Both the position numbers and the translations under genes were made by a program. The notes below the pieces were generated by a model that was given only the letters and a program-made list of their open reading frames with translations, searched no databases and was not told the DNA's origin. Source: Vreelandella zhuhanensis (GTDB lineage Bacteria > Pseudomonadota > Gammaproteobacteria > Pseudomonadales > Halomonadaceae). From it: 64,000 bases of DNA. The stretch covers positions 310,001-374,000 of the forward strand of contig NZ_WTKP01000002.1 in NCBI RefSeq assembly GCF_009793355.1, written 5' to 3'. Below, piece after piece: positions 46,101-47,756 of this stretch (within the stretch, counting starts at the first letter, position 1; each line of letters begins with the position of its first letter).

Positions 46101-46559
46101 CTAGAGTAAGTTTGGCGCCATAGGCAAAAGCACCCGCGACATCAATAAGGCATCCTCGCGCCCGGAGCGGCTTGAGTAGTAGCCCTTGCGTCGCCCGTCA
46201 AGCTGAAAGCCACAGCGGTGGTAGAGCGTGACAGCCGCTGTGTTGCCGGCCCGGACTTCAAGCAACAGCCGCTCGCTTTGCCACGCCTCCGCGATACTGG
46301 CTACCTCTTCCAGCAAGCCTTGCCCCAGCCCTTTGCGCCGATGAAGCGGCGAGACACCCAGCGCCTGAAGCTCGGCATCGAACGGCAGACGCGCCAGCAA
46401 GGCGTAACCGCCCAGCTGAGCGCCTTGCCAAACGCCGATCAGCCGGCAGTCAGCGTCGGCCAGTGCCGTGGCCAGCTGATTGGCGCTTGCGCCACTGCCG
46501 GCCTCGGCCTCGAGGGCTAGCAACGCCTCCAGGTGTTCGGATGAGAGTTCAATGATCAT
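46101..46559 (-). CDS. rimI: ribosomal protein S18-alanine N-acetyltransferase
   Basis: GNAT acetyltransferase that modifies the N-terminus of ribosomal protein S18. The 152 residues contain the acetyl-CoA loop VSPLHRRKGLGQGLLEEV near residue 70, LLLEVRAGNTAAVTLYHRCG near 98 and GRRKGYY. ATG 46559 overlaps the end of the upstream gene by 11 bases. In E. coli rimI follows holD, which supports the assignment of that neighbour. Confidence 0.93.
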   Translation of the reverse strand: MIIELSSEHLEALLALEAEAGSGASANQLATALADADCRLIGVWQGAQLGGYALLARLPFDAELQALGVSPLHRRKGLGQGLLEEVASIAEAWQSERLLLEVRAGNTAAVTLYHRCGFQLDGRRKGYYSSRSGREDALLMSRVLLPMAPNLL

Positions 46560-47451
46560 CCGACTTTTCCCGTGCCGCCTCTTCCCGCGCGTCATCCTCT
46601 TTGGCTGCCAGCTGTCGCCAGCGGGTACCAAGTTCGACCAGCTCAGGCCACAAGGCTCGCTTGGCCCCGGCACTTTCAAGTAGCTGTAAAAGGCTCGGCG
46701 CCTGCCACACGGGTAAACCTAACGCCTGGCTTTGCACCTGCCCCTGGGCGCTGCTAGCGATATCCAGCACTTCTGCCAAGGTGGCGTGTGTTTCATCGTC
46801 TGATGACGACCCACTCCACCACAACACTTGGTTCAATGACCAACCATGGCGCGCGGCGCAACCGGCGATATAAGCCTCCAAGCCCTCACGGGCTTCTTCC
46901 AGGGGGTCATCCGCAGGCAGTCCTTCCACCATCGGCCAGTAAAAGGTTTCGATGACCAGCGGCGTGGCTAGCTGAATCCCCGCCGCCTTCAGCATGGCGC
47001 TCAGCAGGCGCTGCTCTTCCGTGCTTATCTCACCCGACTGAAGGCTCAGCCAGCGCCCCTCCAGGCAGATCAACGACAGCTGAAAGCGCAGCGGCTGGGC
47101 CGGGTCTTGCACGGCTTTCACGCTATCAGCGGCGGGCACTTGTTCCAAGACCGGCGGCTTCTCGCCAGTGGGTGCGCCGGCATCTCCCAGCAACGCCCGC
47201 ACGTCCCCCAGCTTTACGGGGTTGTCCGTTTTCTTCTGGACAGATGCTTGCTCTTCCTGGCGACTAGAGGCCGTTTGCTGCGCTTCATCGAGCAGAGCAT
47301 GCAGCTTGGCGCTGGCGTGCTGCGTCTCGAGCTCGGGCGCTTCCCACTCACAGGCGGGAGTGGGCCGGGCATTGGGCAGGCGGTAACGACTGGCCCAGGC
47401 GGTAATGCCCATGGCCTGAAGGTATTGCAGACGTTGGACGTCGCCGGTCAC
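46549..47451 (-). CDS. holD: enlarged DNA polymerase III psi subunit candidate
   Basis: Proposed psi subunit, which joins chi to the clamp loader. The GTG at 47451 overlaps the bolA stop (GTGA) and gives 300 residues, over twice E. coli psi (137). Residues 8-19 read LQYLQAMGITAW against LQQLGITQW near the same place in E. coli psi. The C-terminal SAGAKRALWPELVEL resembles the TARAALWQQI end of psi. Between lie an uncharged-to-acidic linker (about 35-110) and a middle domain. The gene directly precedes rimI, as holD does in E. coli. I recall that pseudomonads carry a 'cryptic', larger psi; this seems the same kind. Start, identity and chi binding are inferred. Confidence 0.72.
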   Translation of the reverse strand: MTGDVQRLQYLQAMGITAWASRYRLPNARPTPACEWEAPELETQHASAKLHALLDEAQQTASSRQEEQASVQKKTDNPVKLGDVRALLGDAGAPTGEKPPVLEQVPAADSVKAVQDPAQPLRFQLSLICLEGRWLSLQSGEISTEEQRLLSAMLKAAGIQLATPLVIETFYWPMVEGLPADDPLEEAREGLEAYIAGCAARHGWSLNQVLWWSGSSSDDETHATLAEVLDIASSAQGQVQSQALGLPVWQAPSLLQLLESAGAKRALWPELVELGTRWRQLAAKEDDAREEAAREKSDDH

Positions 47452-47756
47452 TGCCCGCCGCCACGACAATCAGGGGAAGCCGGACGCTCGCCCCCACGCG
47501 CCTGCCATTCCAGCGGGGTATAGAGATGCAAGGCCAGGGCGTGCACCGGGCCGGAAAGCTCATCGGCGAGCAAGGCGTACAGCTGCTGATGGCGCTTGAC
47601 TGGCATCATGCCCTCAAAGCGCTCGCTCACCAAGGTGACCTTGAAGTGCGTTTCAGAATTTTCCGGAACGTTATGCCGATAGCTTTCGTTTTCAACCTGA
47701 ACATACTCCGGCGCCAGCGCCTGGAGTTTTTCTTCAATCAGTGCCTGCCACTTCAT
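47448..47756 (-). CDS. bolA: BolA family protein
   Basis: BolA-type protein; homologues bind monothiol glutaredoxins with a 2Fe-2S cluster and also act as morphogene regulators. The 102 residues align well with E. coli BolA: ESYRHNVPENSETHFKV near 24, LVSERFEGMMPVKRHQ, VHALALHLYTPLEW and a C-terminal SPDCRGGGQ. The stop overlaps the start of the HolD candidate, implying a bolA-holD-rimI transcript. Confidence 0.94.
   Translation of the reverse strand: MKWQALIEEKLQALAPEYVQVENESYRHNVPENSETHFKVTLVSERFEGMMPVKRHQQLYALLADELSGPVHALALHLYTPLEWQARGGERPASPDCRGGGQ

Follow-up and report, generated by a model that had tools for sequence, protein, structure and literature searches.

A long psi subunit of DNA polymerase III in Vreelandella zhuhanensis and its likely kinship with family-4 uracil-DNA glycosylases

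The 64,000-nucleotide stretch of Vreelandella zhuhanensis DNA analysed here (hereafter, the window) contains a minus-strand gene that, judged by its sequence, is holD, encoding the psi subunit (HolD) of DNA polymerase III. The product is a long psi of an already known type that is barely detected by the family models. The explanation that best joins the observations, and which we regard as very probable, is that the protein is a HolD forming a three-part bridge between the clamp loader and SSB, the core of which is dead, related to uracil-DNA glycosylases (UDGs) and descended from a tethered UDG. The N-terminal peptide would dock on the DnaX (tau) trimer at domain III, the rest of psi would be spaced from it by some 90 residues of flexible linker, and the C-terminal domain would hold chi (HolC). 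Since chi held by psi grips the SSB tail, the clamp loader would be tied to SSB-coated lagging-strand DNA. These binding steps, to DnaX, chi and SSB, most likely operate as in E. coli and P. aeruginosa, from which they are extrapolated. The present analysis directly observed the homology of the peptide and of the core, the neighbouring genes, the presence of one detectable copy and the partner genes.

A further-reaching reading, which we hold to be likely, concerns the origin of psi in general. According to it, psi would be a retired family-4 UDG, and a motif-intact UDG, tethered to DnaX by the psi peptide, would still occupy the place of holD in many genomes of the class. The replisome would thus carry, or have carried, a uracil remover as the chi-psi bridge, and the "missing" psi would be this enzyme.

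The holD locus and the identification of psi

The open reading frame of 300 residues (46549-47451), for which the preliminary description named no strand, starts from a GTG at 47451, and stops interrupt the same frame on the plus strand (Table 1). The gene order in the window is bolA-holD-rimI, with the holD GTG overlapping the bolA stop by 4 bases (GTGA). As noted in the preliminary description, rimI lies directly downstream of holD, as it does in E. coli; a rimI start at 46559 gives an overlap of 11 bases, and the corresponding E. coli holD/rimI overlap is 32 bases. The rimI model TIGR01575 matched the longer 192-residue frame with an E value of 5.6e-22 and 78.3 bits, the curated cut-off being 86.4.

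Table 1 Features of the holD locus and of its product, in window coordinates.
Feature	Position	Strand	Basis
holD, DNA polymerase III psi subunit, long pseudomonad type; GTG start, 300 residues	46549..47451	-	Open reading frame; PF03603; collinear with Pseudomonadaceae-type psi
rimI; its start overlaps the holD end by 11 bases	46101..46559	-	TIGR01575 match
bolA-family gene; its stop overlaps the holD start (GTGA)	47448..47756	-	PF01722, E 1.3e-27
N-terminal psi peptide, residues 1-22 (VTGDVQRLQYLQAMGITAWASR); predicted to bind DnaX domain III	47386..47451	-	N-peptide profile comparison
Low-confidence linker, residues 30-117	47101..47364	-	AlphaFold block pLDDT of about 46-72
Linker motif 1, KLHALLD, residues 49-55 (family consensus RLHALLD)	47287..47307	-	Near-invariant columns of the family profile
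Linker motif 2, RALLG, residues 85-89 (family consensus ARALLG)	47185..47199	-	Near-invariant columns of the family profile
Folded psi core, residues 118-300; alpha/beta domain resembling UDG but lacking its catalytic motifs	46552..47100	-	AlphaFold; profile matches

A relative was found in 58 of the 61 genomes of the window's family, which we take to be (probably) Halomonadaceae; the class sampled is presumably Gammaproteobacteria. Homologues of bolA and rimI are both present in all 30 fetched loci of the family (30/30), the window's own included. The start codon occupies the same residue in 26 of the 30 loci, window included (19 GTG, 7 ATG); it is found at the next codon in three, and the gene is frameshifted in one. 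In G010, a genome of the same genus, holD is split over two reading frames; L029 (1113-2043) and L039 are both records of this one gene. The split may reflect a frameshift, an assembly error or decay.

The family profile consists of 26 rows, namely the window and 25 of the 29 other family loci (L005, L011, L013 and L029 were left out). Of 194 genomes sampled from the order, 95 contain a relative by this profile and 99 gave no match at E<=0.01; among these 99, the Pseudomonadaceae-type genomes were examined further. The order-wide set of long psi comprises 146 open reading frames with an N-terminus, drawn from these relatives, the Pseudomonadaceae-type set, 22 of the 23 named Alcanivorax-type loci and the family loci. 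It includes duplicates of a few genes, and was reduced to 144 by dropping L029 and L039; L086, at a contig end, was left out. The 146 products have a median length of 269 residues (5-95% range, about 232-301), and rimI lies directly downstream in 144 of them, the 2 exceptions being one frameshifted gene seen twice. The label Pseudomonadaceae refers to 7 genomes, all of one family, featuring PrrF over cut-off, and their psi proteins are used as stand-ins for those of Pseudomonadaceae. A scan of named genomes yielded Alcanivorax-type genomes and one Pseudomonadales MAG. Weaker PrrF-like RNA matches, at about 36-65 bits where the gathering score is 90, occur in four genomes of the window's family (G015, G036, G003 and G020).

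The psi model PF03603 matched the 306-residue frame with an E value of 6.6e-4 and 20.4 bits (curated cut-off, 22.2); two stretches were counted, the best of which is N-terminal, and the C-terminal stretch scored alone is weak (E 1.19). At E<=0.01, the same model matches 13 of the 26 family members (best 1.7e-7). NCBIfam psi models gave weak scores with the window protein alone (E 0.02-0.06). Searching the whole genome with PF03603 at E<=10, we matched this reading frame and no second psi.

The profile of 144 long psi aligned with that of 31 short psi, E. coli included, at 96.3% (E 1.8e-9); 60 column shuffles did not exceed 2.1%, and alignments of RimI and BolA gave 0.5% and 0.1%, respectively. 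The family profile alone reached 86.9% against short psi, over the C-terminal helix only, and the order-wide profile was needed for more. Compared by hhalign with the 7 Pseudomonadaceae-type psi, a profile of the window's family gave 98.7% (E 3.9e-16) and was collinear over nearly the full length, with 40 column shuffles at 2.3% or less. All 7 adjoin rimI and have a TTG immediately before the first aligned residue. The partner genes for chi (HolC), DnaX domain III and one SSB ending in DDEIPF are found in the same genome. The proposal of the preliminary description that the gene is holD is therefore upheld: profile similarity is present, both to PF03603 and in the comparison of order-wide long psi with short psi, and no second holD was detected in the genome at E<=10.

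The psi core and family-4 uracil-DNA glycosylases

Profile comparisons suggest that the folded domain of the window protein is a catalytically dead relative of family-4 UDG. The order-wide profile of the psi core matched the family-4 UDG domain over its whole length at 98.9% (E 2e-17), the best of 60 shuffles reaching 0.7%. Against a larger set of UDGs encoded mostly beside rimI (rimI-type UDGs) the figure was 98.8%, versus 1.9% against paralogous UDGs, which match rimI-type UDGs at 99.8%. Likewise, the rimI-type UDG profile detected 25 of 183 psi at E<1e-3 (best 3.8e-13) and none of the shuffled psi, and the paralog profile detected 0 of 183. At the level of order-wide profiles, the family-4 UDG (TIGR00758) of the rimI locus and long psi share a homologous full-length domain.

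A UDG-family search of 94 genomes of the class matched the same reading frames in which PF03603 had found a psi peptide (L095-L097). PF03603 was found in 10 of 185 genomes of the class, and 3 of these 10 matches lie inside UDG reading frames. Three rimI-side UDGs scanned with NCBIfam were assigned to family 4, and to UDG only. Among the matches listed, 68 PF03167 rows have an E value of 2.2e-31 or lower (hand count); 66 were fetched, and the two left out are a row truncated by a contig end and an additional copy from a genome already represented. The psi N-peptide was called when at least one of two profiles, both built from psi sequences exclusively, scored E<0.01 (54 and 51 calls by each alone). 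Among the matches listed, it is present in 57 of the 67 strong UDG loci (L200-L266), equal to 56 of 66 distinct genes as L226 and L266 are the same gene, is not significant in the other 10 of 67, and occurs in 0 of 23 paralogs, a hand-picked part of the weaker rows. Again among the matches listed, rimI lies directly downstream of UDG in 49/67 strong loci and 0/23 paralogs, and both peptide and rimI are found in 44/67 and 0/23, respectively.

Excluding 7 bridging forms, motif A (GExPGxxED) and motif B (HPAYLLR) are each present in 61 of 66 rimI-type UDGs and the CxxC pattern in 65 of 66; we take these to correspond to motif A, motif B and the Fe-S cysteines of family-4 UDG. In contrast, long psi proteins lack the catalytic motifs (0/144 for both A and B) and the Fe-S cysteines (CxxC in 1/144), and none of the three occurs in the 32 short psi (0, 0 and 0). 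The window protein lacks all three and, as catalytic motifs A and B are absent, is not filed as a UDG enzyme. The single UDG-family match in the window's own genome (E 2.8e-17) is far weaker than the rimI-type UDGs.

L088, L092, L093 and L094 are short rimI-side proteins, each composed of a psi peptide and a decayed UDG-like domain, and appear to bridge UDG and psi. Motif A, motif B and CxxC are all missing from the 7 bridging forms. L092 and L093, both PF03603 matches, score 2.6e-9 and 3e-12 with the UDG profile, and L092 shows weak NCBIfam matches to psi (7e-4) and to UDG_fam4 (0.004). When the sequences are aligned jointly, HPAYLLRSPxxKxKAWxDL at the C-terminus of UDG falls on the C-terminus of the window psi (LLESAGAKRALWPEL), and L092 (HHPSHLLHHPSDKRHAWEAL) is intermediate. 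A chain of two steps also connects the families: the family profile detects L042 (genome G195) at 7e-18, and L042 matches the rimI-type UDG profile at 3.1e-11.

Order-wide profiles, the shared peptide and synteny argue well for the link to UDG, which cannot be seen when only the window's family is used. With the rimI-type UDG profile, the window protein is not detected. The core of the 26-row family profile aligned with rimI-type UDGs at 1.4% (E 0.037), collinearly over 139 columns, and the 7 Pseudomonadaceae-type psi, also collinear, at 3.2%; neither value is significant. Since both fail against UDG on their own, the link runs through the long psi of other families.

Structure comparisons were made with predicted models. 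For the window model, the best row listed by VIA is the Thermus UDG 1ui0 (Z 7.0, 129 aligned, 4.2 A), a middling Z according to the tool's own note, as models without a clear match reach the same level. For a short-psi model, 1em8 (E. coli psi, Z 17.0) is followed by family-4 UDGs (4zbx, Z 7.0) and by 1ui1 (Z 6.7). Rows for UDG and for Argonaute MID occur in the lists of both models; 1em8 is absent among the VIA matches listed for the window model, an absence that proves nothing. With Foldseek, the window model gave no match at E<=0.001, and the first rows were mixed (RNase H2, TDG, DnaK and MreB).

Ancestry of psi

On the most economical reading, psi would descend from a UDG tethered to the clamp loader, in which the Fe-S cysteines and the active site were lost. 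Long psi would retain more of the UDG-sized fold, and E. coli psi would be the shrunken end of the series. The direction, from UDG to psi, is inferred because UDG relatives occur beyond the class, for instance on an Azospirillum plasmid; the UDG of that plasmid has no score in the peptide profiles.

Alternatively, psi and UDG may share only a general alpha/beta fold, and the peptide may have been grafted at the rimI locus by a later gene fusion. Such a short peptide could move, and some comparisons agree with this history: the short psi core aligns weakly with the UDG domain (27.6%, or 60.6% with more UDG rows; shuffles at 4.9% or less), the window's family alone has no UDG match, and the tree, poorly supported (0.235), does not resolve. 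We consider this history unlikely, however, as a shared fold and a moved peptide sit poorly with an order-wide psi core that matches rimI-type UDGs, and not their paralogs, collinearly over the full domain, with the same locus beside rimI, and with bridging sequences such as L092 and L093.

Descent from a tethered UDG would bear on a known gap in the distribution of psi. In a 2012 review, chi genes are described in more proteobacterial classes than psi genes, and two options are offered, namely that psi has diverged beyond detection or that chi acts without psi (PMC3290774). Many bacteria have chi but seem to lack psi, and for them the UDG carrying a psi peptide in the holD position is a candidate psi. 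If this is true, uracil excision would be coupled to the clamp loader, and the larger size of long psi would be explained by reduction from an enzyme, not by domain addition. In a search that mostly covered journals outside subscription, we found no publication that mentions uracil-DNA glycosylase along with both the psi subunit and the clamp loader, or along with both HolC and DnaX. Word searches found neither glycosylase, homolog nor evolution in PMC13213242, and no glycosylase in PMC11981726. Psi may already be classed among the UDG folds in structural databases.

In Mycetohabitans and Candidatus Vallotia (Betaproteobacteria), the gene order is tsaB-rimI-UDG. The N-terminus of these UDGs (LEELGIAPLWVRR or similar) looks psi-like by eye, and two of them score E 0.3-3.5 with the peptide profiles; it is not counted as support. 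In L291, a 66 kb plasmid of the insect endosymbiont Candidatus Vallotia cooleyia, tsaB, a rimI homologue and a family-4 UDG are found together.

Domain layout and comparison with known psi subunits

In the AlphaFold model of the window protein, confidence is low up to about residue 115, and one high-confidence domain extends from about residue 120 to the C-terminus. The pLDDT of this core is mostly 87-97, with one weaker block (73) at residues 211-220. The order-wide core profile aligned with the short psi core at 97.2% (E 3.4e-11; shuffles at 1.5% or less), window residues ~134-281 corresponding to residues 39-135 of E. coli psi. The middle segment alone (118-246) aligned with residues 38-69 of E. 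coli psi at 77%, the best of 60 column shuffles reaching 0.7%. Since this segment aligns with the E. coli psi core, the "middle domain" of the preliminary description is the psi core. When inspected by eye, the AlphaFold models of the window protein and of short psi feature strands and helices in the same order. In the window model the loops and helices are longer, notably the second helix, an extra strand is present at the N-terminus, and an insert precedes the last strand.

The true surplus over E. coli psi consists of about 90 residues of disordered linker together with extended loops. The ~160 surplus residues had been divided into a disordered linker, which is confirmed, and a middle domain without counterpart in E. 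coli, which is not, as residues 118-246 align with the E. coli core. It is very improbable that the protein is a HolD with an extra, lineage-specific folded domain inserted between the peptide and the C-terminus. The window protein is indeed about 160 residues longer than E. coli psi, and its model shows helices and strands missing from short psi; they belong, however, to a single high-confidence domain, the middle of which aligns with the E. coli core, and long psi is widespread in the order and has been published for P. aeruginosa (PMC3197488). A novel extra domain was rejected on the alignment of long and short psi core profiles. The suggestion of an additional domain peculiar to this lineage is accordingly withdrawn, residues 118-300 forming one domain and an oversized psi being on record for P. 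aeruginosa.

The two terminal segments noticed initially are both found at places matching those of E. coli psi. The N-terminal segment LQYLQAMGITAW, at residues 8-19, corresponds to LQQLGITQW, and the C-terminal AKRALWPEL, at residues 263-271, corresponds to ARAALWQQI. The profile of long N-peptides (LxxMGITxW type) aligned with the short-psi N-peptide profile at 97.3% (E 2.3e-11; 40 shuffles at 8.5% or less); the psi N-terminus is described as binding tau domain III (PMC3290774). A PDB sequence search with the window protein gave no match, and a search with the 26-row profile gave six rows, of ATP synthase b and a SIR2 protein, none of them with an E value below 1.1. Chance matches at both ends were rejected on profile comparisons with shuffled controls. 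That the gene encodes an unrelated hypothetical protein, as the sub-threshold Pfam score and the empty PDB sequence search might hint, is scarcely credible in view of these shuffle-controlled comparisons, the synteny and the single-copy status.

Like E. coli psi (HolD, PF03603), the window protein has an N-terminal peptide, a core, a C-terminal helix and a downstream rimI gene with overlapping ends. E. coli psi, with 137 residues, lacks the long linker and has a shorter core. The resemblance to P. aeruginosa psi (PA4679, HolD; the cryptic psi of pseudomonads) is closer in length, as the functional protein there has 278 residues, compared with 300 in the window, and its depletion strongly reduces growth (PMC8879598). 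The P. aeruginosa protein is described as about twice the size of E. coli psi, with an E. coli-like core carrying loop extensions and an unstructured N-terminal region that binds ssDNA at low salt, for which a conserved stretch with basic residues has been suggested (PMC3197488). The disordered N-terminal region and the E. coli-like core with loop extensions are features shared with the window protein (PMC3197488, PMC8879598). The start codon is non-canonical in both, UUG (TTG) being reported for P. aeruginosa psi (PMC3197488) and GTG being found in the window.

Unlike the ssDNA-binding N-terminal region of P. aeruginosa psi, the window linker has no strong basic patch; its net charge is -5 over residues 38-117 and does not exceed +2 in any 15 residues. 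Linkers of the window's family have a median length of 81 residues and a net charge of -5. DNA binding of the P. aeruginosa kind is uncertain for the window linker given its low positive charge; as the 7 Pseudomonadaceae-type linkers also have a median net charge of -2, charge does not decide ssDNA binding.

The window linker also differs from those of the 7 Pseudomonadaceae-type psi in carrying the KLHALLD and RALLG motifs, which look like putative binding sites. With patterns chosen after inspection, motif 1 is found in 32 of 32 family linkers and motif 2 in 30 of 32; a helix is predicted over residues 46-58, around motif 1, at low confidence. The patterns used for the two motifs match none of the 7 Pseudomonadaceae-type or 25 Alcanivorax-group linkers. 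The pattern RxLL occurs in 30 of 32 family linkers (shuffle mean, 1.4), in 0 of 25 Alcanivorax-group linkers and in 0 of 7 Pseudomonadaceae-type linkers. Outside the window's family, a relaxed linker pattern matches 10 of 80 linkers, where shuffling gives a mean of 0.7, a result that is suggestive only.
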